Part shown: piece after piece, positions 24,202-38,576 of the stretch
How positions within the stretch are numbered: position 1 is the stretch's first letter
Layout: every line of letters starts with the position of its first letter
Assembly (NCBI RefSeq): GCF_900143015.1
Contig: NZ_FSRT01000003.1
Span: 372,001 to 436,000, forward strand
Direction: 5' to 3'
From: Fibrobacter sp. UWB11
GTDB lineage: Bacteria; Fibrobacterota; Fibrobacteria; Fibrobacterales; Fibrobacteraceae
Length of the DNA stretch: 64,000 nt
Program-made: the position numbers and the translations under genes
The notes under the pieces: generated by a model
What the model was told of the DNA's origin: nothing
Database searches by the model: none
Seen by the model: only the letters and a program-made list of their open reading frames with translations

Positions 24202-25638
24202 CTAGAACTGCGTAATAAATTCCCAGCCAATGTCTGAGGCCCAAAGCTTGCCATTTTCGCGCATATCCCACTGGTGGCCGCCATTGAAGGTGCACCACTT
24301 CACAGGGAAGCGCGGATCGACCGTCTTATAGTCATAGCAGACGTGATTGCCACTGGTGTATTCGGTAGCCTTTTCGCCAGTGCAGTCGGTATGGCCTTCG
24401 GGACCATTGTTCTTCAGAATCCTGTCACGGGCGCTACGTCCCATGCTCGGCGGGCAGGTACCGTCGCCTAAACCCACGGTTCCCATCCAGGCAATAGGCT
24501 TGCCCACATTCTTCGGAATGTAAATCACCTGGTCGGCAGTCGCGAACACCACGACACCGCGGAGACGATGCTGGAACGTCTGAGCGAGCGAATTTGTATA
24601 CATAGCACCAAAGCTGAAACCGGAAGAGAACACACGAGACGTATCCACGCAGAGGTTTTCGTTCAAGTGCGTAAGAAGTTCGTCAAAGAACAGGTGGTCT
24701 TTGTTATCGCCACAGCGCCACGGCATTTGGTCGGTGTAACCGTGCGGAGCCACAAAAATGGTGCTCTCCTTGGCGCCCTTCTGGTCGCGGTAACCATAAT
24801 AGTGTTCGTTTTTAGCAACGTTCTGTGCGGAACCGCCCATGCAGTGCATACCGAACACCAAACGATACGGCTTGTTCTTATCGTAGTTGTCAGGCACGTC
24901 GAGATAGACTTCGTGCTCGATACCGCCACCCGTGAACTTGAAGTAGCTCTTGAGCGTATTGTCCTTGCCGCAGCCCTTACTCGGCGTAGGATCGTTGCCC
25001 ATGGCATAGCCAAACGCAAACGTCTGCTTAGTGGCCGCCTTGCTGAGTTTCAAATCGAGAGTCGTATCAAGTTTCGACAGGGGAACAAACAACGTATCAT
25101 AATCTTCTGCAACGACACGCAGCGTATCAATAACATCGCCTTCCTTATGAAGCGCCTTCTTTTCTGCGGAACCCAAAGACCCAGAAGCATAGCCATAAGT
25201 GCTAAAGCGAACCGTTTCTTGCGCGGATCCCATCTGCACCTTTGCAACAAATGTCCCCGGCGCCTGGATCGAAGCTGCAAGATCAACCGTCCCAGAACCT
25301 TGCAACGTTTTCGCAAGTACCTGGTTACCCGTCATGTCAAATACCTTGACCTGCACAGGAGTGCTACCGCCCTGCGTAAAATTCAGGATTCCGTTAATCA
25401 AGCTGAAATGTCCAACAGCGGCACGTGAACCGTGTAAGGATACTTCCTCTTCATAAATGACAAAATTTCCAGATCGGTCCGTTTCAGTTTCATTGCCCTT
25501 TTGGAGCAATTTCACGGTCGCCGCAATTGGCGAAGAATCGTCTTTATCTTTAACGGTTCCTTTTAGGGTGTAGGCAGATGCCGCAGAAAAAGCGGTCGCC
25601 ATAACAATGGGAAATACAGAAAAGAATATTCTCTTCAT
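24202..25638 (-). CDS. secreted CE1-like esterase, paralog 4
   Basis: 478 aa from ATG 25638, behind AAAGGAGA (the frame opens at 25665). Signal peptide, regulatory-like domain (LKGTVKDKDDSSPIAATVKL), T9SS-like module (STPVQVKVFDMTGNQVL, IQAPGTFVAKV) and alpha/beta-hydrolase domain with Ser342 in GFSFGAM. Asp is in GLGDGTC and His in GGHQW. Very similar to paralog 3 (GCGKDNTLKSYFKFTGGG). It lies 135 bp downstream of the GH9 cellulase on the same strand, so the two may be expressed together to attack esterified cell walls. Confidence 0.85.
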   Translation of the reverse strand: MKRIFFSVFPIVMATAFSAASAYTLKGTVKDKDDSSPIAATVKLLQKGNETETDRSGNFVIYEEEVSLHGSRAAVGHFSLINGILNFTQGGSTPVQVKVFDMTGNQVLAKTLQGSGTVDLAASIQAPGTFVAKVQMGSAQETVRFSTYGYASGSLGSAEKKALHKEGDVIDTLRVVAEDYDTLFVPLSKLDTTLDLKLSKAATKQTFAFGYAMGNDPTPSKGCGKDNTLKSYFKFTGGGIEHEVYLDVPDNYDKNKPYRLVFGMHCMGGSAQNVAKNEHYYGYRDQKGAKESTIFVAPHGYTDQMPWRCGDNKDHLFFDELLTHLNENLCVDTSRVFSSGFSFGAMYTNSLAQTFQHRLRGVVVFATADQVIYIPKNVGKPIAWMGTVGLGDGTCPPSMGRSARDRILKNNGPEGHTDCTGEKATEYTSGNHVCYDYKTVDPRFPVKWCTFNGGHQWDMRENGKLWASDIGWEFITQF

Positions 25639-25773
25639 CCACAGTCTCCTTTCCCACGACACCACAATCCATATTGTAATATAAATTAAAGGCCAGCAAA
25701 AATTACCGAGTAAAAATAATTTTCAATCGGAGTCCGGGGTGACAGTGAAAACGGGATTGACGAAAACAAAGAA

Positions 25774-27534
25774 TTACTTCACGACGGCGTTGGCGTGGCC
25801 GCTGTAAATGGCCTGCAAGGAACCAACGAGGTATGCAAGCGGAGCATTCCAGTTGATTGCCACTTCGTTAGTCGCGTAACTGCAACGGTTATCAATGTAG
25901 GCAAGTGCCGGCTTATCGGCCGAAGCGTAGTTCGGGCACTTCCAAAGTTCCTTACCATCCAAATTAATATCTTGCTTGCCCAAGTGCGGACCGCCCACAA
26001 GCATGCCCGGCACCGGATCATCAACAAAGTCAGATTCGCTTACGCGGTGGTGCGGGAAACGCGGGCTTCTAAAGCCGTATCCAGTCACGTAAGAAATTTC
26101 CATCGGGTTCTTGCCGAGCAAGTAATCCAAGCACTGCTGTGCCCCATCCAAATAGCTCTTGTCGCCCGTGAGGTAATAAGCGTGCAACAATACAATTCCG
26201 TTATTCGCCATGGCACTGTTACTGCCCCAGTTCCAGCTAGACGGAAGTGCCGGGAGCCTGTAAGCGCTCGTATCGCCAATAGCACGGAGTTCGTTCGCGA
26301 CCTTGAGCAAGGCCTTGCGAGCATCGCTACCAAGCTTTGCGCCATATTCCGCAGAATCAAGCGCCACACGGTAAACGGCAAGCATATTCACGTCGCCCCA
26401 CCAGGCACCATCCGGACGGAACTTGTACTGTTTCAAGTCCTTGAGGTAATCGGCCTTTTTCGTAGCACGATAAAGTTCTGCCGCAGCAAAGGCAAATTCA
26501 TCCTTGCCGTTTTCTTCGCCATACGTATAGTTACCCGTTTCAACATCAGACGGTTGTTTATACAAAGTTTTCGGATGACGCTTAGCCCAATAGTAGGCGA
26601 CTTCAGAAGCCTTCAGCATGCGCTTTGAAAATTCGCTGTCAAACGGAGCATACACGCGAGATGCCTGAGCCATTACCGCTGCAAAATCAAGCGTTGCAGT
26701 CAAACTCTTTTCAATCGCATAACGCAAGGCGCCATCAAGTTCAGGCATTGTGCTAGAACCGAACTTGAGCGAGGTGAGTTTGTGATAAACACCGCCATCC
26801 TTGTCTTGCATCGAAAGCATCCAGTCAAGATTCCAGCGGATTTCTTCCAACAGTTCCGGCATCTTCGGGAATTCACGCGGAATGTCCCAGTGGAGCGTAT
26901 CTACAAATGTCGGGAAATGCTCGTACATTTCCAAAAGCGTAAACACGGTAATGCCGGAATTCACAATATACTTGCCATAGTCGCCCGCATCATACCAGCC
27001 GCGCTGCGACTTGATAATCTTTGCATCGGCCTTCTTGGGTTCGGGCTTGCCATTTGCCTTTGCAACCGTCTTTGCCGTTGGCAAATCCGTACCATAAACT
27101 ATCACGCTATCATCGGCATGGCCCATTGCACGTGCCCACTTGCCCGCATAACGCGTATCGAGCGCCATGCCCGCACGCTGGAAATAGAACCACTTGAGCG
27201 CAGCCTTTGTCACGTCAACATAAACATTCTCGCCCACCACGACCGGATTACCGATATAGCCGTCCCTGAACAAACGATAGGTGCCAGGTTTCTTGATTGC
27301 AGAAATATCGTATGTCTGGACTTCTTCACCGCTATATTCCCAGTCATAGACCATCGGGGCTTCGAGCGTGAGCACCACCTTCCCCGCCATATCGCGAACT
27401 TCAAGCGGATTTGCATCATTGCCGGGGATGACAACAATCTTTTCAGATTCAGGAGCAAAACCAAGCTGGTTCACCAAGGGAATGGCAAAAGACGGAACTG
27501 CAATCGCTAACGCAGCGAGCAAATGTTTACGCAT
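25774..27534 (-). CDS. GH9 endoglucanase
   Basis: 586 aa from ATG 27534 (GTGAGG ahead; the longer frame to 27579 adds no signal peptide). Signal peptide 1-17, N-terminal Ig-like CelD-N domain about 18-100, then the (alpha/alpha)6 GH9 barrel. Catalytic residues: Asp182/Asp185 in GWYDAGDYGKY, His495-His496 in SPRFPHHRVSE, and the general acid Glu557 in NEVAINWNAPL. It hydrolyses beta-1,4-glucan outside the cell. No carbohydrate-binding or sorting domain is present at the C-terminus. An inverted repeat in its promoter region suggests regulation. Confidence 0.93.
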   Translation of the reverse strand: MRKHLLAALAIAVPSFAIPLVNQLGFAPESEKIVVIPGNDANPLEVRDMAGKVVLTLEAPMVYDWEYSGEEVQTYDISAIKKPGTYRLFRDGYIGNPVVVGENVYVDVTKAALKWFYFQRAGMALDTRYAGKWARAMGHADDSVIVYGTDLPTAKTVAKANGKPEPKKADAKIIKSQRGWYDAGDYGKYIVNSGITVFTLLEMYEHFPTFVDTLHWDIPREFPKMPELLEEIRWNLDWMLSMQDKDGGVYHKLTSLKFGSSTMPELDGALRYAIEKSLTATLDFAAVMAQASRVYAPFDSEFSKRMLKASEVAYYWAKRHPKTLYKQPSDVETGNYTYGEENGKDEFAFAAAELYRATKKADYLKDLKQYKFRPDGAWWGDVNMLAVYRVALDSAEYGAKLGSDARKALLKVANELRAIGDTSAYRLPALPSSWNWGSNSAMANNGIVLLHAYYLTGDKSYLDGAQQCLDYLLGKNPMEISYVTGYGFRSPRFPHHRVSESDFVDDPVPGMLVGGPHLGKQDINLDGKELWKCPNYASADKPALAYIDNRCSYATNEVAINWNAPLAYLVGSLQAIYSGHANAVVK

Positions 27535-27579
27535 TTGAAACCTCACTTTATAAAAGACGCCCGTATTCACGGGCTTCAC

Positions 27580-27925: not shown

Positions 27926-27930
27926 AGTAA

Positions 27931-27964
27931 AAAAATCCTCGGCGCGGGTGCGTCGAGGATTTTT
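27931..27964 (-). terminator. terminator of the six-gene surface operon
   Basis: AAAAATCCTCG and CGAGGATTTTT form an 11-bp stem with an inner CGC/GCG pair. It lies 33 nt beyond the last stop codon of the operon and is symmetrical enough to act in both directions. Confidence 0.85.
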
Positions 27965-27997: not shown

Positions 27998-29053
27998 TTA
28001 CTTCTTCTTGCCACCCTTGTAGTTGATACCTGGACGGAGTTCGAGACCAACAGTCACGAGGAGCGACACAACCGGTTCATAATGATCCTGAGAAAGATCA
28101 TACACGGCAACGCCAGCCATGCCTTCGCTCTTCACGTGCTGAGCAACAGCCTTCACAGACGGAATGCCCATGAACACGATAGATTCGGATTCGCTCACAG
28201 CCACTTCGGACTTGGAAGCTTCATCGAATGTCACCGTGTAATCTGGAGTATCGAAGCGGTTCATGAGTTCTGCGTACGGGAGGTAGCCTTCATTGCCACT
28301 GCCTACACCTGTGTGACTAGAGCCGAGGCCCTTGGCACCAGCAAAGGACTTACCGTAGAGGAACACGACCGGAGCAAGGAGATCCTTGTTCACACCGGCA
28401 GCAGCGACTGCATCAAGCGTTTCCTGCACAGAGTTTGCGCTCTGGTTCGGAACGAGGCTGCTTTCGCTTTCGTTCATAAGGTCAGCCATAAACACGTCAA
28501 CGTAAGCGGCACGGTTCAAGGCTTCGGCCTTGTAGGCATCCATGCCTGCGGCCGGGTAAATCACGGCCGTCACCGTAGAGCCCGAAAGACCATCGACCAA
28601 GGCGTTCAGCATCTTGGCGTAATCTTCGGAATCGTCCGTCGTGAGGTTCTGCCAATCGAGTTCAACACCGTCGCCACCGTTTGTCGAGAGCCATTCCTTG
28701 ACGTTCGAAACGAACGTGGAAAGCGTTTCGTCAGAAGAAGCGATAGCCTTGAGGCTCGATTCAGCTTCCATGCCACCCACGGAAACAATCAGCTTCACGC
28801 CGTTTTCCTTGGACATGCTTACGAGGTTCTTGAAGTTGTCGGCATCGTATTCGTCGGCAAAGGCAACCGTACCTTCTGCAGTCGGAGTGATAGACATGTA
28901 ATGGATGTCGGTCACGAGATTGTAGCGGATATCCTTTGCATAGAACTGTGAATACTGACTCCAATACGGATAGAAGCCAATCACTTTGTCAGCAGCAGCC
29001 TGGGCCATTGCAGCGCCCATGGCGAGAGCTAATGTAATAACTTTAAAGTTCAT
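27998..29053 (-). CDS. exported GH18-fold protein lacking the catalytic Glu
   Basis: 351 aa, signal peptide ending AQAA. The fold is GH18: VIGFYPYW at strand 1, KLIVSVGG at strand 3, the strand-4 motif, and GVAVYDLSQDH near the C-terminus. In active GH18 enzymes strand 4 reads DxxDxDxE; here it is D128-G-V-E131-L-D133-W-Q135, so the proton donor Glu is Gln and one Asp is Glu. It should therefore be a non-hydrolytic GlcNAc- or peptidoglycan-binding (chi-lectin-like) protein, unless an unusual mechanism applies. Last gene of the six-gene operon, 17 bp after the lipoprotein gene. Confidence 0.82.
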   Translation of the reverse strand: MNFKVITLALAMGAAMAQAAADKVIGFYPYWSQYSQFYAKDIRYNLVTDIHYMSITPTAEGTVAFADEYDADNFKNLVSMSKENGVKLIVSVGGMEAESSLKAIASSDETLSTFVSNVKEWLSTNGGDGVELDWQNLTTDDSEDYAKMLNALVDGLSGSTVTAVIYPAAGMDAYKAEALNRAAYVDVFMADLMNESESSLVPNQSANSVQETLDAVAAAGVNKDLLAPVVFLYGKSFAGAKGLGSSHTGVGSGNEGYLPYAELMNRFDTPDYTVTFDEASKSEVAVSESESIVFMGIPSVKAVAQHVKSEGMAGVAVYDLSQDHYEPVVSLLVTVGLELRPGINYKGGKKK

Positions 29054-29070
29054 TTTGAATACCTCTTATC

Positions 29071-29736
29071 CTATTGAATCAGACGATCAACGCCAAGAGC
29101 GTCACGGCAGTAATAACCAGAATCTGCTATAAATGCTCCGTCTTTTTCAGCAATATTCAATTGTTGCGCGAAAATCGGCAAAGAGTTACGCGGCGTATTA
29201 GCAGCTTCTTCCGGGCGACATGCACGGTATGCCCAACCATGGTCCCTACCATAAATGTTGAATTGCTGAGCAATAGCCTGATAGTCCACAGGAACAGTCA
29301 ACAACATCCCTGCATCATCGGCAACACCGATAAAGTTGAATTCAGTCAAGCCACTACGTGTTTCCCTGCGGAGAAGCGACGTATCGGGCAAAGACAAATC
29401 CTTAATAACATCTGCCCATTGTTCTGCATTATGGCCACCAATTTGCGGATGCGTGTAAATAGCCATAACCACATCCATATTGGCGAGGAAGGCTTCGTCA
29501 TCAGCTTTCTTTGTGGCATCGTAATCTTTACCAAGATTAACCTTAATCTGGCTATTATAATCAGCCACAAAGTCCTTAATTTGACGAACACGCAACTCCG
29601 GATGAAGAGCCATATACTCTTGAGCATTGAAATCTGCCGGAAGAGCTTCTGCATAAGGGTCACTAACACTCATCGATCCGCAAGCGCTCAAAACGCCTGC
29701 CACGAGAATCATCATGTACTGGTGAAGTTTTTTCAT
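29071..29736 (-). CDS. operon lipoprotein, unknown family
   Basis: 221 aa from ATG 29736 (AGAGGTG ribosome site; the frame opens at GTG 29745). Signal peptide with a good lipobox L-S-A-C. The mature protein begins GSMSVSDPYAEALPADFNAQ and is rich in aromatic and acidic residues. A C-terminal stretch (YRACRPEEAANTPRN, GYYCRDALGVD) has two Cys that could pair. No family was recognised. It sits 12 bp after the third barrel gene and 17 bp before the GH18-like gene, so it probably forms part of one surface assembly. Confidence 0.75.
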   Translation of the reverse strand: MKKLHQYMMILVAGVLSACGSMSVSDPYAEALPADFNAQEYMALHPELRVRQIKDFVADYNSQIKVNLGKDYDATKKADDEAFLANMDVVMAIYTHPQIGGHNAEQWADVIKDLSLPDTSLLRRETRSGLTEFNFIGVADDAGMLLTVPVDYQAIAQQFNIYGRDHGWAYRACRPEEAANTPRNSLPIFAQQLNIAEKDGAFIADSGYYCRDALGVDRLIQ

Positions 29737-29748
29737 TTTCAGCACCTC

Positions 29749-31869
29749 TTAGAAATTCACCGTTACATCGGCAAGGAGAACGAGCTTGCTGATGGAAATT
29801 TTGTTAGTAGGAAGACCCGGAATGGTATATTCGAGTTCGTTCTTAAGCATACCGCCCTGGAGGGAGACGTAAGAAAGCGGAGCAAGCTTCACACGGGCAC
29901 CACCGAGAGCGAGCATTTCTGTTGCCTTGCTAACAGAAGCAGCGGCAACACCGAAACCATTTCCAAATTCCTTCGTGTACATCTGGAAGCCACCGAGCAA
30001 AGCAAACGGACCCCAGACATCAGCAGTAATACCACCCACAAAGCGAGAGGTCTTACGCTTGAGGAATGCGCTTTCAGAACCCATGGCCACAGAACCCTGA
30101 ATGAGAATCTGCTGGTAGTCACTCAAGAAGCGACCTGCATCAACACCGATGCCCGCTCCGAATTCCGTATACTTATTTTCAGACACAGCCATGGTGGTGT
30201 AATCGATGGAATTGGTTTCAGTCACCATGTTAAAGCGAGCATTGAAGAACACCTTGTCAGCCCAGTTCACATCGGCCTTAGCGGTAATACCCTTGCGGTC
30301 CGGAGTAGCAAGGCCGAGCGGCAAGGCAAGACCCACAGACGGATCGATAATCATCAACGGGTCGAGTTCCATCTTCTTGGCCGTGACGCCAGAATAACCG
30401 TTACGGTAGAAGTGGCCGTTCTTGTAGTTGTTGAACAAGCGAGCGTACATGTTTTCGCTTTCGTCCTGATCGCTCAATGCATTCGAAAGGTTCTTCGAAG
30501 TCATCAAGTTCGTAGCCTGCAATGTCGAGGAGTTGTAGACATTGAAGTAGAGGTTTTCAAGACTTGAACCACCGAAGGTAGCGAGAACAAGGCTGTCTGC
30601 CGAATTGCCATAGAAAGCGTTCGAGTTAAAGATGGTCGAACGGCCCTGGTAAACCGGAGAAGAAGCAAGTTCAGACCAGAATCCGGAATCCGTCTGGAAG
30701 TAACCAGCGTTTACCTTGAAATCGATGTCGCTGATATTGCCCTTCACGAAGAGGTCGGCATAGAAGCTCTTGCCATCTTCATCAAGGTAATCTTCATTCT
30801 TAACGACAGTCGGAGTCGAAGTAACAGGTTTCAGGTAGACGAAGAATTTGTGGTCTTCCTTGGCCTGGACTGAATTATAAGACGTCTTGGTTTCCGTCGT
30901 ATTGAAATCACGGTCAACCTTCCACTTGGACATGGCAAATTCGCCGTTCAAGCCGAACGTAACCGGAAGTTCCGGCATGAGCTTCTTGGAATCGAAAGCA
31001 GCTTCGACAGAAATGACCCTGTTGTTATCGTAGTAGACGGTATCGGTATTAGCAATGCTTCTAGAACGACGGGAGAGTTTACGATCCATCAGGTTCACGA
31101 AGTTCACGCCAAGATGAGCACCGTAAGCATCAGCACCGACTCGTGCACCCAAGAGGTAACGGTCCGAGAAGTCGAAGTCGAAGAAGATCTGGTCCAACTT
31201 CTTTGCCGTATTGCGGAGACGGGCGCCAGTAAGCTGAGCAGTGATGTTATCAACCACACCGGCTACGTTACCGCTATTGTAAACGACATTGATACCATGC
31301 AACAGGCGACGGCTCGTTGTATCGAGATTGCGCTTTTCAAGAGCTTCACGACGCTTTTCTGCGAAAATTTCCGGTTCCTGGAGAATTTCGGTCTGCGGAG
31401 TGAAAATGGTGAGCGGCGTATAACCGACACGCATGTAACCCAAGTTGAAGTCTACATGCTTATTGAGGATGGTACCATCGTAGCTGAACCAATGACCGAT
31501 AACCGGGTTATTGTTTTCATCGAAGGCACTCTGCCAATCCTTGTGCAAACGCAACTGGACATCGATCATGGTCTCGGAGCTCGGACGAGCAGTCAAGCGC
31601 AGGTTCACGTCCGTGAAGGCCTGGTTTTCTTGAGTCGGAGATTCCTTGGCAAACTGATCGGAAGTCGCAAAAGAAGCAACCGCACCGGCCTTTGCCGTAC
31701 CATTAATCTTAAGTCCCAGCACAGCTGCATTGAGAGAATCCAGCTTTTCTAACAGGGATTTCTGTTGCGTAGCAACCTCAGCCTGATTTTCAGCAGCAAA
31801 AGCAGATGCAGCCGAGAAAGCAATTGCGGAGGTCAATAAAAGTTTGCGCATGTTCATATTGAAATTCAT
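29749..31869 (-). CDS. outer-membrane beta-barrel protein (operon barrel 3)
   Basis: 706 aa; GGGAGG lies 8-9 nt before ATG 31869. Signal peptide ends SAFAA; a short coiled segment follows (QQKSLLEKLDSLNAAVLGLK). The rest has alternating hydrophobic strands and ends in VTVNF, a terminal aromatic expected of outer-membrane barrels. It is related to barrel 2: both have SxxxPxxEIxxEPxIFAxKR near residue 150 and IDPxxxLALPxGLATxxRKG at about 500-530. Function unknown; the pattern suggests a porin-like or glycan-binding barrel specific to this group. Confidence 0.8.
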   Translation of the reverse strand: MNFNMNMRKLLLTSAIAFSAASAFAAENQAEVATQQKSLLEKLDSLNAAVLGLKINGTAKAGAVASFATSDQFAKESPTQENQAFTDVNLRLTARPSSETMIDVQLRLHKDWQSAFDENNNPVIGHWFSYDGTILNKHVDFNLGYMRVGYTPLTIFTPQTEILQEPEIFAEKRREALEKRNLDTTSRRLLHGINVVYNSGNVAGVVDNITAQLTGARLRNTAKKLDQIFFDFDFSDRYLLGARVGADAYGAHLGVNFVNLMDRKLSRRSRSIANTDTVYYDNNRVISVEAAFDSKKLMPELPVTFGLNGEFAMSKWKVDRDFNTTETKTSYNSVQAKEDHKFFVYLKPVTSTPTVVKNEDYLDEDGKSFYADLFVKGNISDIDFKVNAGYFQTDSGFWSELASSPVYQGRSTIFNSNAFYGNSADSLVLATFGGSSLENLYFNVYNSSTLQATNLMTSKNLSNALSDQDESENMYARLFNNYKNGHFYRNGYSGVTAKKMELDPLMIIDPSVGLALPLGLATPDRKGITAKADVNWADKVFFNARFNMVTETNSIDYTTMAVSENKYTEFGAGIGVDAGRFLSDYQQILIQGSVAMGSESAFLKRKTSRFVGGITADVWGPFALLGGFQMYTKEFGNGFGVAAASVSKATEMLALGGARVKLAPLSYVSLQGGMLKNELEYTIPGLPTNKISISKLVLLADVTVNF

Positions 31870-31884
31870 TCTAGTTACCTCCCA

Positions 31885-34041
31885 TTAAAATTCCACATTA
31901 ATGGAAGCTTCAAAAATAGACTGACTAAACTTATGCGTGTAAGTTCCCGTAGCACCGTCACCGCTCTTTGCGCTGAAGTAATCCGGCAAGTTACGGATAG
32001 ATTCGCCAAGAGCAGCCGTATTGTAGTCATTCTGAACCATGATCATGCCGTAGTTGATGGCAAGCCAAGCATTTTCACCAACCAGATAATCAAAGCCAAC
32101 CATCCAGTGTTTCTGATTGCTCTTTGTAACAGGAACATCCTGACCCACGAACGGATTGATAGAACCGATACCGTAATCGGTATTGATCATCTGGAAGCCA
32201 GCGGTAAAGCCGAGACGCGGCAAGAACTGGAACGAGAAACCAGCGTTGATAAAGTTGCTTGTGAGCTTTACAGATTGACCACCCACCAAGCTAGTTTCAT
32301 TTTCAGAATGTTTGAAAGAACCGGAGAATTCAGCAGGCTTGCTGAAACCAGCGAGCTTAGCGATATCGAACTTTGCACCGGCACCGAATTCCATGTAAGA
32401 AACCTTGTCGATTTCAGGAGCGCTTGTCTGGACCTGGTTGAAGAGGCTTACGAGAGCCTGAGCTTCAATCTTATCCTGCCATTCGCCCTTGACCAAAGCG
32501 CGAACGCCCTTACGGTTTGCAGTAGCAAGGCCATTCGGCAAAGCAAGTTGGAGAGCCGGATCAATCATCATGTTCAAGAGAGCGATCTGAGCGGCGGAGT
32601 AGACATTGGAACCCCAAGAATTCTTGTTGTAGGTAGCAATGTTGTAGCTCTTGCTCTGACCGGCATAGAAAGCATCGTCATCGGTGCCCAAAGTACGACC
32701 CACCGGAGAGAACTTCGGAGAGTAGTTGTAAAGAGCATCGAAGGTGGAGTAAAGCGGAGAGTTCACGCCATACTTGACCGTATTACCGTCCTTATCGGAG
32801 TTCAAGACGCGCTGAGCGAAGAAACTCGGAGACTGGGCCATGTTGTTGAACCACTTTTCGTTGTTCATCAACACGTCAAGAGTAAGGCCTGCGCTCCAGG
32901 AATTATCAACCTTGTAACCTGCATTCACGGTAGCAAGGATAGCAGATCCATTTACGCTTTCTTCTGTTTCAGGAGCAAGAACGATTGTTCCCGTTTCGTC
33001 GGTAATAGCCGGAGTCTTAACCTTGTTGATAGACATGGCGTATTCGGCGACGAGATCAAGAGTAAGGTTCTTGTTATTGAGAATGCCAGCAACATCGGCA
33101 CCGGCACGGGCACTCAGCACAAACGTGTTCTGCGGAGTGGTTTCGTACGGGTTGATTTCCTGACGAACGTAATCGTTAAAATTGATAACATCATCTTCAA
33201 CCGGATGTCTGTAGACATAAGACTTCGAATTTTCGTTATCGAAAATGAGCATCGGAGTCACGCCGACGTAGACGTTCTTCTGAACCGGCAAGAGTTCGAT
33301 GTTACCACCGACGAGCCACTTGTCCGTTGCAGAAGCAAGCGAAACACCAGCAACAGAATCATTCGGGAGAATGTTGCCTTCGGCACCGCTCAAGTCAAGC
33401 ACAGACACGCGATTGACGCGAGCAAAGAATGCTTCGGCACGGAGTTCGCCAATCATCGGGTCGATTTCCTGGCGGAACTGGAGATTCACACCCTGAAGGT
33501 TGCGCTTGTTGCCGTCAAGGAGCTGTTCCTTCTGGGCCATGTGGCGCTTACGGGCGAAAATCGTCGGTTCGTACATGATTTCGATACCGGGATTGTAAAT
33601 AGAGAGCGGGGAGATTGCCTGACGGAAATCACCGACCACCCAGTAGAAGTTCTTGCCGACATTGCCTTCGACGTTGAGCCACTTGGCTTCGAGAGTCTTA
33701 GCTGCAGCGGCGAAGTATTCCTGCATGCCGCCACCAAGACGCATAATCACGTTAGCGCGAACGCTTTCGTACGGACGGAAACCGAAGCTCAAGTCTGCAC
33801 TGACAAACTCATTGCGTTCGACATCCGGCATATTGTTGATGCCGCGATTGTCCTGATCCGAAGAGAAGCTAGAACGCTGAGCAACAGCACGGATGCTACC
33901 GCCAATTTCGACACCGCGCTTTGCATTGGCGCTATCAGCCTTGGCTTGCAATGCCTTTTGATTATCCGCAACTACAGATGCCGATGCGGCAACCGATGCG
34001 GTAAGAAGGGCGATTAAAATATTTTTCATTTTCATATTCAT
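31885..34041 (-). CDS. outer-membrane beta-barrel protein (operon barrel 2)
   Basis: 718 aa from ATG 34041; ATG 34050 directly abuts GGGAGG and is too close, while 34041 is spaced 9 nt. Signal peptide ends ASASV, then a short helix (ADNQKALQAKADSANAKRG). It has barrel-like alternating strands and ends with EASINVEF, Phe last. Paralogous to barrel 3 (IYNPGIEIMYEPTIFARKR and IDPALQLALPNGLATANRKG). Preceded by barrel 1 with a 15-bp gap and followed by barrel 3 with 15 bp. Function unknown. Confidence 0.8.
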   Translation of the reverse strand: MNMKMKNILIALLTASVAASASVVADNQKALQAKADSANAKRGVEIGGSIRAVAQRSSFSSDQDNRGINNMPDVERNEFVSADLSFGFRPYESVRANVIMRLGGGMQEYFAAAAKTLEAKWLNVEGNVGKNFYWVVGDFRQAISPLSIYNPGIEIMYEPTIFARKRHMAQKEQLLDGNKRNLQGVNLQFRQEIDPMIGELRAEAFFARVNRVSVLDLSGAEGNILPNDSVAGVSLASATDKWLVGGNIELLPVQKNVYVGVTPMLIFDNENSKSYVYRHPVEDDVINFNDYVRQEINPYETTPQNTFVLSARAGADVAGILNNKNLTLDLVAEYAMSINKVKTPAITDETGTIVLAPETEESVNGSAILATVNAGYKVDNSWSAGLTLDVLMNNEKWFNNMAQSPSFFAQRVLNSDKDGNTVKYGVNSPLYSTFDALYNYSPKFSPVGRTLGTDDDAFYAGQSKSYNIATYNKNSWGSNVYSAAQIALLNMMIDPALQLALPNGLATANRKGVRALVKGEWQDKIEAQALVSLFNQVQTSAPEIDKVSYMEFGAGAKFDIAKLAGFSKPAEFSGSFKHSENETSLVGGQSVKLTSNFINAGFSFQFLPRLGFTAGFQMINTDYGIGSINPFVGQDVPVTKSNQKHWMVGFDYLVGENAWLAINYGMIMVQNDYNTAALGESIRNLPDYFSAKSGDGATGTYTHKFSQSIFEASINVEF

Positions 34042-34056
34042 CTTTAGCATCCTCCC

Positions 34057-36348
34057 TTAGAACCAAGCCTTGGTTTCGGCAGCAATGTAATGGGAATGCC
34101 AATCATTGTCAGATACGGTTTCATCAGAGTGCGTCATGAACTTGTAACGGAAGTGGAGACCCACGCGGTCAGAGAAGTCCCAGTCAAAGCCAAGGCCAAT
34201 TGCGAAGTCCTTGTAGTTGATCGGAGCTTTCTTGACGAGATAAGAATTCACTTCGTAGATGTAAGTAGTCTTACCAGCCTGCGGTCTACCGAGAGTATTT
34301 GTTGCGGCTTCAAGGATGTAGGCCTTATCAGATCTGAACGTTTCGAAACCGAGGATACCCACCATGTGGAAAGTCGGTGTCACGGCGACGGTCGGTTCAA
34401 ACTGGCCGTAGAAGCTCGTCAAAAGCATGTTGGACTGCTTTTCGGAAACAGCAAGCGGAGCAAAAGAAGTAGAAATACCAGAGAGGGCGAAGTAGCCAGT
34501 CATCATGATATTGCGGTCGGTACCGAACCAGTGACCGATATCGTAACCACCCATGAAGGAGAGGTAAGAAGACCACTTGGCATGCATCGGAACACTCGTA
34601 TGGGCAGCCTGGTCGCCATTATCGTAAGCGGCAAAGGATTCCCACATTTCCCAAGTACCACCATAGAGACCACCGCGCTGACGGTACATCTTGACGCCTT
34701 CACCAGAATTCTTTTCAGCGCCAACACGATTAATATAACCAGCATTAGAGCTGTTACCAGAGTCAGCAACGAAGAGCGGCTTATGCTTTGTCCAGGAGTT
34801 TGTGCTTTCCCAAATATTGCGGCCGTTCAAACGGTAGTTGAAAGCAATCACGTCTTGACCCGGGTCAATCTGACGATGCTGAGCATACTGGAAGTCAAAG
34901 TAACCACGGTTGAAGCTCGGTTCCAACTTGAAGTTGATACCGGCCATGTTCGGGGAGTAGCGGAGCGCACCTGCGTTGAGGTAGGTTTCATCCTTGCGCC
35001 AGCCCGTGAAACGGGACGGGTTCGTGAGAGAATACGGAGAATAGAAGCCCGGCTGGAAGAACACGAGTTCAGCAGTCATCGGCCAACCTTCGAGGTACTT
35101 GCTCTGAGCCTTTACATAAAGACCGAGCTTCGGGTTTGCCATGCTAGAACGGTAGCCTTCCTTATTTGTGGTATAGCCCTTAGTTCTATTAACAGCTCCG
35201 GTTGCATCAACGGCATAATCAAGAGCCTGCGGATCCGGAATAAACACCGTGGAATCCGTAATGCTAACACCCACATCGGCCATCAAGTAGAGTTTCGGGG
35301 TAACGTTACCCTTCACATCAATTGTTGCAATGTGAGTATTGAGGAGGGTCGGGAAACCTAAATCGGTATATGTGGTCCACTGCGAACGGAATTCCGGTTC
35401 GAAGATGGTTCCCTTATCATAGGTAACACCCATGTAGTTCACACCGACGGTAAGGTTATCAGCAATCTTTTCCTTGGCGATACGGCCATGGAGCACTGTA
35501 CCGCGGAAATCGTAACCACCGGACATTTCGAGTTCGCCCGGCTGACCACCGTACATACGGAGACCGTCACGAGTTGCCACGTCGGCATCGATCGGCTGGG
35601 CAACGAGGAACTGGGCCTTCATGTCGTACGGAAGCTGGTAGACGTTGGCAAAGACACCACCGAAAGAGCGGTTCGTCCAGAATGCACGACCACCTTCCTT
35701 GACCGGCTTAAATGCCTTTTCCTTATAGTAAGTAGACACGGTCTTTTCGTCTTCGAAAAGTTCGTACTGCCAAACGAAACGCGGGTTCGTTTCACGTTCC
35801 CACATGGTAAGCGGAGAGGCGTTTGCCCAAATAACACCGCCTGCGGTAATGTAGGCACCGAACACACCTGCACGGATATCGACACCAACGTTCAATTCTT
35901 CGTTAATCGTCGAAGAATAGTAGTCCGTAGAGTGGTCGAACAAGACACGTTCATTGTCGGCATTAGTCGGGGACTTGGTCGGATTCTTGGCCAAGTAGTT
36001 CGTATAAATACCGCTCAAGTCGAACGGGAACATGAGGTTCGTAAACAACGTAATGTAGGAGTTCGGCATTGCGACAACGTTGACGTTCAAGATAGCGTCG
36101 ACGTTTGTGCGGGCCTTATCGTCCCTGACCCACGGGCTCTGTTCGGAATAGTGGAAATTCTTCAAACGGAAAGCCATGTAACCGGAGACTGCCAGTGGCA
36201 GATCGTCCTTACCCAAAAGAGTCGATTCCATGTTACCGGAAAGAGTATCCAACGAAGCGTGAAGGGAATCAAGCTGCAACTGCGGAGGGAGAGCCCACGC
36301 AGCACCGAGGCTAGACGCTAGTAAAAGAGAAGAAACTGTTTTGCGCAT
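34057..36348 (-). CDS. outer-membrane beta-barrel protein (operon barrel 1)
   Basis: 763 aa, AGAGGA before ATG 36348. Signal peptide ends AWA; then a short helical segment (QLDSLHASLDTLSGNM) and many aromatic-rich amphipathic strands. The C-terminus AAETKAWF ends in Phe. More distant from barrels 2 and 3, but it has the same layout and a comparable SPLTMWERETNPRFVWQYELF segment. It probably spans the outer membrane. No known transporter family was recognised by eye. Confidence 0.8.
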   Translation of the reverse strand: MRKTVSSLLLASSLGAAWALPPQLQLDSLHASLDTLSGNMESTLLGKDDLPLAVSGYMAFRLKNFHYSEQSPWVRDDKARTNVDAILNVNVVAMPNSYITLFTNLMFPFDLSGIYTNYLAKNPTKSPTNADNERVLFDHSTDYYSSTINEELNVGVDIRAGVFGAYITAGGVIWANASPLTMWERETNPRFVWQYELFEDEKTVSTYYKEKAFKPVKEGGRAFWTNRSFGGVFANVYQLPYDMKAQFLVAQPIDADVATRDGLRMYGGQPGELEMSGGYDFRGTVLHGRIAKEKIADNLTVGVNYMGVTYDKGTIFEPEFRSQWTTYTDLGFPTLLNTHIATIDVKGNVTPKLYLMADVGVSITDSTVFIPDPQALDYAVDATGAVNRTKGYTTNKEGYRSSMANPKLGLYVKAQSKYLEGWPMTAELVFFQPGFYSPYSLTNPSRFTGWRKDETYLNAGALRYSPNMAGINFKLEPSFNRGYFDFQYAQHRQIDPGQDVIAFNYRLNGRNIWESTNSWTKHKPLFVADSGNSSNAGYINRVGAEKNSGEGVKMYRQRGGLYGGTWEMWESFAAYDNGDQAAHTSVPMHAKWSSYLSFMGGYDIGHWFGTDRNIMMTGYFALSGISTSFAPLAVSEKQSNMLLTSFYGQFEPTVAVTPTFHMVGILGFETFRSDKAYILEAATNTLGRPQAGKTTYIYEVNSYLVKKAPINYKDFAIGLGFDWDFSDRVGLHFRYKFMTHSDETVSDNDWHSHYIAAETKAWF

Positions 36349-36357
36349 AAAATCCTC

Positions 36358-37101
36358 TTAAATCTCGTTGCGGAACGGATAATGAGCCGGGCCTTCGTAC
36401 GGCTTGCCATGCTTCTTAATCACAATATCGTCGATCCAAACCTTGAAGGATTCGTTTTCATCCTTACGGACTTCGAGACGGAAGCCCTTGAAGTTGGACC
36501 ATGCGAACGGGAGCATCACTTCGCGCGTGTTCTTTGCATCCCAGTAAACACCGGTATTACCGAAGAGTTTCAGAGGAATGCTGAAGTGCTTCCATTCAGT
36601 CGTAATTTCACCAAGACTCTTGGAACGGAGCTTGACCTGGAGGGATTCGCCGTTGCTCTTGACGCCATCGTCAACGAGCACGAACAAGGCGTTTTCACCA
36701 CCCTGGGCACCCTTGATCCAAAATTCGAGAACACCTTCTTCCAAATAAGGAGTCAAGTCCACGGAACCCGCAATACAAATTGCAACGCCGGAATAGTCAC
36801 TTGCGATAAGTTCGATTTCCATGGAAAGAGCACCTTCCATAGCGTACTTATCCGTGAGTACCGGTTCGGGGTTTTCACGCGGATACTGGTAGGTATAACC
36901 ACCACCGCGAGGAATAGCCTCACGCATGACAACGGTGACAACTTCTTTATCAGGACGGAACGGCTTGGGATCCTTCATGACAAAGTGGGACTGGTCGCGG
37001 TCGCGGTAATCGCTAAAGCCGTAGCCAGCAAAAGAAGATGAAGCAAGAAGCATCGCCGCTAGAGCGGACTTCCAAATGGCTTTTTTTAAGTTTCCATTCA
37101 T
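36358..37101 (-). CDS. exported galactose-binding-fold (CBM11-like) protein
   Basis: 247 aa, first gene of the operon. Signal peptide ends SSFAG. The mature domain has the jelly-roll pattern of CBM11/CIA30-like modules: GALSMEIELIASDYSGVAI, LEFWIKGAQGGENALFVLVDDG, KHFSIPLKLFG and FKGFRLEVRKDENESFKVWIDDIVIKK, the last strand being characteristic. No catalytic domain. It likely binds polysaccharide (beta-glucan) or mediates surface contacts; the family match is by pattern only. The next gene starts 9 bp downstream. Confidence 0.72.
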   Translation of the reverse strand: MNGNLKKAIWKSALAAMLLASSSFAGYGFSDYRDRDQSHFVMKDPKPFRPDKEVVTVVMREAIPRGGGYTYQYPRENPEPVLTDKYAMEGALSMEIELIASDYSGVAICIAGSVDLTPYLEEGVLEFWIKGAQGGENALFVLVDDGVKSNGESLQVKLRSKSLGEITTEWKHFSIPLKLFGNTGVYWDAKNTREVMLPFAWSNFKGFRLEVRKDENESFKVWIDDIVIKKHGKPYEGPAHYPFRNEI

Positions 37102-37238: not shown

Positions 37239-37337
37239 TGGACTCAAGCGTATACAGAAATTTTTAGCATCGCAACGTTTCGGAATGTTTACAAATTAAG
37301 ATTTTTGATAGGCGTCACATGGACTCAAGCGTAAACA
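37239..37337. promoter_or_regulatory. two 18-bp direct repeats between the surface operon and the GH5 gene
   Basis: TGGACTCAAGCGTATACA (37239-37256) and TGGACTCAAGCGTAAACA (37320-37337) differ at one position and start 81 bp apart. The 326-bp divergent region 37102-37427 has no gene. The repeats could be binding sites of a regulator shared by the cellulase and the operon. Confidence 0.6.
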
Positions 37338-37427
37338 CAACATAAGCATGTTTTCATTTTTCTATTTTGCAATTGAATATAGATTTTGAGAACAGGTATT
37401 TATAGCGAAACCTTTTTGGGGGTCAAC

Positions 37428-38576
37428 ATGTTTAAAAAAGTTCTTTCTTCTTTGGCTATCGGCTGCGCCCTCGGATGCTCATTCTGGGCATGCGACAGCG
37501 GGTCTGCAACAATTCCTACTGCACCCACTACCACCAAAGCCACTCCCGTAGACTACACCTTGGGCAGAACCATGAACGCCATTCTCGGGCGCGGTATAAA
37601 CCTTGGCAATTCTTGGGATTCGGAAGGTGCAGACGACAGCGGTTGGGGAAACCCGATCAACGACGGGGATTTCGCGATTATCAAAGCCGCCGGTTTCAAT
37701 TCCGTGCGCATTCCGGTTCGCTGGCAATACGGTTCCGATTACGGCACTCATACGGTAGACCCGGACCGCTTAAACGGCGTTCTGGCAGACATTCGACTCG
37801 CCATCGCAAACGGACTTGCCGTAGTTGTTAACTTCCACCACTATGTAGAATTGAACTGCGCCGGTGGCGGTGGCACAAAATCGGATGGCTCCAAGTGCAA
37901 ATACGACGCCAATGAGTTCACAGCCGAAAAAGCGCACTTCCTTGCCTTGTGGGCGCAAGTGGCAGCCGCAATGGCAGAATTTCCCGATAACATGGTCGTT
38001 CTTGAAATTTTGAACGAACCTTCGATCCCAAACGCTACGCTCGTAGACCAATTGATGAACGAAGCTTATACCGTTATCCGCACGTATGCTCCGGGCAAAA
38101 CCATCATGTTTGAGACTTACCACTTGGCAAAGTTCGAAGACATTGAAAGCTTGCACATGCCTGCAGACGGCAACATCATCTTTAGTGGCCACTATTACCT
38201 CCCCTACAACTATAGTCACGAAGGTCACGGCTATGAATGCAAGGGCGATGCCACATTGACATCCACTGCAGTTGATGATTTCGCTTACTATGTTTCTCTC
38301 GCCTACAAATTCTACCCCGATATAAACGGAATTGACCATATTCCTATGAACATGGGTGAATTCGGCGTTGCCGGTGGAGACAACAGCCCCTGCCAGTGGC
38401 AACAAGGTGATGGCCCCAGCGAGACAGGAAAAGCCTACTGGGCCGAAAAAACCGCAAAAGTAGCCGTCCAGTACGGGATATCTTTCCATTACTGGAGTTT
38501 CGGTCAAACAGGTGGGTTCCAAGCCTTCGATGGCAAAAATTGGCTTCCTGGATTCCCGGAATCTTTGATCTTCTAG
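37428..38576 (+). CDS. GH5 endoglucanase, exported (possible lipoprotein)
   Basis: 382 aa from ATG 37428, preceded by GGGGGTC (the frame opens at 37386). Signal peptide followed by F-W-A-C-D, a poor but possible lipobox, then a Thr/Pro-rich linker (about 25-41). Family 5 barrel: RGINLGNSWD, FNSVRIPVRW, VVNFHHY, acid/base Glu197 in ILNEPS, nucleophile Glu311 in MNMGEFGV, and ISFHYWSFG. It cleaves beta-1,4-glucan, and the lipid anchor would keep it at the cell surface. Divergent from the six-gene surface operon. Confidence 0.92.
   Translation: MFKKVLSSLAIGCALGCSFWACDSGSATIPTAPTTTKATPVDYTLGRTMNAILGRGINLGNSWDSEGADDSGWGNPINDGDFAIIKAAGFNSVRIPVRWQYGSDYGTHTVDPDRLNGVLADIRLAIANGLAVVVNFHHYVELNCAGGGGTKSDGSKCKYDANEFTAEKAHFLALWAQVAAAMAEFPDNMVVLEILNEPSIPNATLVDQLMNEAYTVIRTYAPGKTIMFETYHLAKFEDIESLHMPADGNIIFSGHYYLPYNYSHEGHGYECKGDATLTSTAVDDFAYYVSLAYKFYPDINGIDHIPMNMGEFGVAGGDNSPCQWQQGDGPSETGKAYWAEKTAKVAVQYGISFHYWSFGQTGGFQAFDGKNWLPGFPESLIF

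Follow-up and report, generated by a model that had tools for sequence, protein, structure and literature searches.

Gene content and organisation of the locus

The window, a stretch of 64,000 nucleotides from Fibrobacter sp. UWB11 (contig NZ_FSRT01000003.1, positions 372,001 to 436,000), possesses six closely spaced minus-strand genes between positions 37101 and 27998. They encode a CBM30 protein, three predicted outer-membrane β-barrels (here OMPA, OMPB and OMPC), a lipoprotein and a GH18-fold protein. The features of the locus and its surroundings are:

37386..38576 (+), divergent GH5 cellulase sharing the intergenic region (Pfam Cellulase 1.6e-31)
37321..37332 (-), ACGCTTGAGTCC, copy 1 of a promoter direct repeat
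37240..37251 (-), ACGCTTGAGTCC, copy 2 of the promoter direct repeat
36358..37101 (-), CBM30, secreted stand-alone carbohydrate-binding protein (247 aa)
34057..36348 (-), OMPA, large predicted outer-membrane β-barrel (763 aa)
31885..34050 (-), OMPB, predicted 22-strand outer-membrane β-barrel without plug domain (718-721 aa)
29749..31869 (-), OMPC, paralogue of OMPB (706 aa)
29071..29739 (-), lipoprotein (221-222 aa)
27998..29053 (-), GH18-fold putative binding protein without catalytic Glu (351 aa)
27929..27963 (-), intrinsic terminator closing the operon
25774..27579 (-), GH9 cellulase downstream of the terminator (Pfam 9.3e-92)

The observation made in the initial annotation, a six-gene operon of exported proteins closed by one terminator, is confirmed. 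Depending on the choice of start codon the gaps between the genes are 9, 6-15, 15, 3-12 and 17 bp; the 9, 15, 15, 12 and 17 bp given initially follow from later, plausible starts. All six proteins have Sec signal peptides as judged by inspection, and the lipoprotein has a lipobox (LSAC) whose Cys (C22) is conserved in 84 of 84 relatives, together with two further conserved Cys (C176 and C213, at least 98%). The three barrels end in WF, EF and NF; the terminal Phe is invariant in OMPA and invariant or nearly invariant across the two barrel alignments (A1 and A2). The terminator (AAATCCTCG-loop-CGAGGATTTTTTT, followed by a T-run, about 27963-27929) was read by eye, as its loop is longer than 8 nt and the automatic scan did not list it.

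Pfam recognises only the CBM30 protein (5.5e-18; 65.9 bits against a cut-off of 27) and the GH18 protein (PF00704, 8.4e-30; 105 bits against a cut-off of 29.6), while NCBIfam adds nothing useful. The CBM30 protein has PDB relatives 2c24 and 1wmx at 4.4e-6 and is very highly conserved in 83 Fibrobacteraceae loci, where many aromatic residues are invariant, although these are not assigned to a ligand-binding site. The lipoprotein matches no Pfam family at E <= 1 and is, as far as searched, specific to Fibrobacteraceae. Neither the CBM30 nor the GH18 protein carries a lipobox or a recognised T9SS tail. Of the flanking genes named in the initial annotation, GH5 and GH9 are supported by Pfam, but the CE1 label rests on weak hits only. 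An esterase-like protein (24202-25665), encoded beyond the terminator, has a weak T9SS-type sorting-tail match (E 0.11) inside the protein (residues 94-151) rather than at the C-terminus. Long antisense ORFs of 694 and 497 aa (31933-34017 and 29074-30567, plus strand) lie opposite the barrel and lipoprotein genes and are probably a codon-usage by-product.

The intergenic region shared by the GH5 gene and the operon contains the 12-mer ACGCTTGAGTCC in two copies, 81 bp apart, which are the only copies in the 3.76-Mb genome. The motif recurs at similar upstream positions in about ten close relatives and is a candidate operator, proposed from sequence alone.

By family, gene order and neighbours, and not by direct sequence comparison, the locus corresponds to Fisuc_1525 (FSU_2007, CBM30) through Fisuc_1530 (FSU_2012, GH18) of F. 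succinogenes S85, with a GH5 (FSU_2005) and a GH9 (Fisuc_1531) beside them. FSU_2012 is cited as a cellulose-binding protein, the reference being the cloning of CBP1 by Mitsumori 1996 (reference 50 of PMC6851124 and 35 of PMC3079729). Fisuc_1530 and Fisuc_1525 occur in extracellular or envelope fractions of S85 (PMC4668043, PMC4619616), and the Fisuc_1530 transcript is high and stable (PMC6204037). None of the paper texts searched mentions Fisuc_1526-1529 or FSU_2008-2011.

Conservation and genomic context in Fibrobacterota

OMPB is found in 131 and OMPA in 130 of 151 sampled Fibrobacterota genomes, OMPA as a single copy in nearly all. Genome sets overlap between collections and were de-duplicated by OMPA sequence only, which leaves 111 distinct OMPA loci. 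Of these, 70 possess the complete order CBM30-OMPA-OMPB-OMPC-lipoprotein-GH18 with median gaps of 9-15 bp, 22 have OMPA-OMPB followed by a long CBM30 protein, 3 have a chitin-type set, and the rest are mostly cut by contig ends or are minor variants. OMPB directly follows OMPA in 110 of 111 loci, the single exception ending at a contig edge. Scattered, independent occurrence of the genes in relatives, which had been named beforehand as an outcome that would contradict the operon reading, is thus rejected by near-complete synteny, and the arrangement is not due to chance. The neighbouring cellulases, in contrast, change between genera (the GH9 gene is variably present downstream in relatives) and are not part of the conserved unit. 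The 80 strongest relatives from a GTDB-wide scan with a single conserved OMPA peptide, which is not exhaustive, are all Fibrobacterota, including F. intestinalis and termite-gut Fibrimonadaceae.

In other families of the phylum the third gene is of Cel51A type, with CBM30 and CBM11 domains; the example tested is 46% identical over its full length to the Cel51A of the window's own genome. This arrangement (OMPA-OMPB-Cel51A-type protein) accounts for the 22 loci mentioned above. Around the barrel pair there often lie family-5 solute-binding proteins (SBP_bac_5), BPD permeases, Opp-type ATPases, GH94 cellobiose/cellodextrin phosphorylases or a GT35 phosphorylase. Such ABC-importer and phosphorylase neighbours are absent from nearly all Fibrobacteraceae loci, including the window. 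In the window's own genome no barrel or ABC-importer genes were recognised beside Cel51A, so that in Fibrobacter Cel51A is separate from the pair; two genes without any Pfam match (430 and 438 aa) are located directly downstream of it (12138-14743 of L154, the Cel51A locus). In one branch of the class the duplicated barrel set sits with GH20 and GH18 genes whose catalytic motif is intact, in 5 of 5 loci, three of them distinct. One genome (G077) carries both the chitin-type duplicated barrel locus (L034) and the single-barrel Cel51A-type locus (L053), suggesting two parallel systems.

All 130 OMPA-bearing genomes possess GH9, and all 9 genomes without GH9 lack OMPA, a co-occurrence that is not corrected for shared ancestry. 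GH94 does not discriminate, as it is present in several genomes that lack the barrels and missing from some incomplete genomes that have them.

The GH18 motif

The GH18 protein of the window shows DGVELDWQ instead of the DxxDxDxE motif and lacks the catalytic Glu. Among 72 distinct operon copies from Fibrobacteraceae the last position is Q in 56, G in 6, I in 5, L in 2, V in 2 and D in 1, and never E, while the fourth position (E131) is E in 72 of 72 and the sixth is D in 71 of 72. Other residues are also strictly kept, so the protein is maintained and not decaying. The second GH18 of the genome (L164, G000:C1:1803526-1804458) keeps an intact motif (DGLDMDWE) and may account for the activity that was attributed to FSU_2012. 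The chitinase reading of FSU_2012 (PMC6851124) is therefore doubtful, although both the loss of activity and the role of the second GH18 are inferred from sequence alone.

Predicted barrel structures

OMPB and OMPC are paralogues (BLASTP 3e-26, 23% identity), whereas OMPA shows only marginal BLAST similarity to them. A FastTree phylogeny of 66 OMPB/C proteins places single-copy barrels, OMPB and OMPC in separate supported groups, with one old tandem duplication before the split of Fibrobacteraceae, a second family of the order and the chitin-type loci. The AF2 model of OMPB (pLDDT 85, pTM 0.85) comprises 22 long strands, with long outer loops alternating with short turns, and a 117-residue, partly helical outer loop between strands 13 and 14; it runs from an N-terminal helix straight into strands, without a plug. 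The OMPA model (pLDDT 77, pTM 0.79) has about 24-26 long strands. Strands were counted by hand from DSSP output, and both models are monomers that do not show whether the pores are open.

None of the barrels has a Pfam family; only faint OMP_b-brl/Porin_4 signals appear in a few of the members. No Plug domain (PF07715) was detected in 38 OMPA and 66 OMPB/C members, although four Plug proteins are encoded elsewhere in the genome, and Pfam found no POTRA, TPR or other secretion-type domain. Neither OMPA nor OMPB has a sequence relative in the PDB, and Foldseek searches give generic barrel similarity only, among others to AlgE and FimD, with TM values of at most about 0.5 among the listed hits. 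A known porin, TonB-dependent or secretion family was thus not recognised. The strand counts and the lack of a PDB sequence relative do not agree with classical sugar porins of 16-18 strands (LamB, chitoporin). The PopA superfamily, 16-strand lipid-trapping oligomers with a central lipid chamber, was set aside on strand count alone; its members named in F. succinogenes (FSU_2404, FSU_0230; PMC12228718) are outer-membrane barrels linked to vesicles or cellulose growth and are encoded elsewhere.

Interpretation and comparison with known systems

The initial annotation inferred a surface adhesion or glycan-capture complex, analogous in role but not in sequence to SusCD systems, with binding subunits instead of enzymes. 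This interpretation is partly supported: the genes are conserved as one block, they belong to no characterised porin or secretion family detected in our searches, the accessory subunits look like non-catalytic binders, and a SusCD-like role without SusCD sequence fits the cellulase, ABC-importer and phosphorylase context in relatives. The formation of a complex by the six proteins, and the predominance of either adhesion or uptake, remain inference. It was overlooked that two of the six proteins are already known from F. succinogenes S85, namely CBP1 and the CBM30 protein Fisuc_1525.

According to the explanation we favour, with moderate confidence, the operon encodes an outer-membrane glycan-capture and uptake apparatus specific, as far as searched, to the phylum Fibrobacterota. 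In this view OMPA and OMPB, with its duplicate OMPC, form large pores, the CBM30 protein and the GH18 without catalytic Glu would bind cellulose chains or cellodextrins at the surface, and the lipoprotein would be an accessory subunit. Captured saccharides would cross a pore into the periplasm, where ABC importers would take them on to cytoplasmic phosphorylases. The present analysis establishes the conserved gene block, the phylum-wide barrel pair, the loss of the GH18 catalytic Glu and, in relatives, the location beside cellulase, ABC-importer and phosphorylase genes, whereas cellulose binding by CBP1 and the envelope or extracellular occurrence of CBP1 and the CBM30 protein were reported by others for S85. 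Cellulose binding by the CBM30 protein, assembly of a complex, passage of glycan, its direction and the identity of the conducting barrel are inferred. Against this explanation, the GH18 was modestly lower, not higher, in envelopes of cellulose-grown S85 cells (-1.30, PMC6851124), the importer and phosphorylase neighbours are missing from nearly all Fibrobacteraceae loci, and neither a lipobox nor a T9SS tail was recognised in the two binders. More tentatively, OMPA and OMPB(C) may be the saccharide conduit of Fibrobacterota, plug-less giant barrels that take in cellodextrins, or even single cellulose chains, handed over by a CBM30 protein and a chitinase turned cellulose-binder; the same machine would serve chitin in relatives, so that the substrate would be set by exchangeable surface binders.

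The strongest alternative, although considered unlikely as the sole explanation, is an adhesion platform in which the barrels merely anchor the cellulose-binding proteins and transport nothing. Two apparently non-catalytic binders, the reported cellulose binding of S85 CBP1, its stable expression and the close contact with cellulose that Fibrobacter requires agree with such a platform, and both roles could hold. However, three 700-residue barrels are more than anchoring needs, and in other families the barrel pair stays, next to importers and phosphorylases, while the binders change to a Cel51A-type protein or chitinases. A dedicated exporter of the CBM30-bearing proteins (Cel51A in relatives, CBM30 and GH18 here) is less likely still. 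The barrels lie beside CBM30-bearing genes in all locus types, these proteins have Sec signals but no recognised T9SS tail, and the barrels resemble AlgE and FimD pores at the generic level; but secretion-type domains were not found, Cel51A of Fibrobacter is encoded elsewhere, the cargo would change completely between locus types, and import rather than export genes cluster with the pair. A housekeeping role, i.e. abundant general porins or envelope proteins with a chitinase-like protein for peptidoglycan turnover as suggested for FSU_2012 (PMC6851124), appears very unlikely. The high stable expression of Fisuc_1530 and the joint decrease of endo-N-acetylglucosaminidase activity and FSU_2012 favour it, but the catalytic Glu is absent in 72 of 72 operon copies, the genome possesses a second GH18 with intact motif that could give this activity, and the barrel pair is absent from every genome that lacks GH9.

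Among known systems, the SusCD utilisomes of Bacteroidetes (PMC7618045) likewise co-encode outer-membrane barrels, a lipoprotein and surface glycan binders near glycan-degrading genes, with a capture and uptake role that is here only proposed; the present locus differs in lacking a plug domain and any SusD or SusC family match, in its paired barrel families and in its restriction, as far as searched, to Fibrobacterota. CBP1 of S85 is a GH18-fold protein annotated as chitinase, and its counterparts are here seen to lack the catalytic Glu across Fibrobacteraceae and to belong to a conserved operon with new barrels. BT1284 (PMC11180146), a catalytically impaired GH18-like protein of Bacteroidales PULs, also combines a GH18 fold without activity with a glycan-uptake locus, but locus and ligand are unrelated, and BT1284 showed no measurable glycan binding, whereas CBP1 is reported to bind cellulose. 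In Cytophaga hutchinsonii (Bacteroidetes), the SGBP-B-like cellulose-binding protein CHU_1279 is encoded in a cluster (chu_1276-1280) needed for cellulose use by this non-cellulosomal bacterium (PMC12016534).

Fibrobacter is a leading cellulose degrader of the rumen without a cellulosome, and its cellodextrin transport is stated to be unknown (PMC6851124). The locus provides defined candidate genes for this step, with a phylum-wide core, a chitin-type counterpart for comparison and clear predicted deletion phenotypes, and adds two large predicted outer-membrane barrel families with no Pfam entry and no close solved structure. It also questions a standing annotation: the GH18 counted as a chitinase and linked to peptidoglycan turnover has lost its catalytic Glu in every Fibrobacteraceae operon copy seen, so that CBP1 is best viewed as an enzyme turned binding protein.
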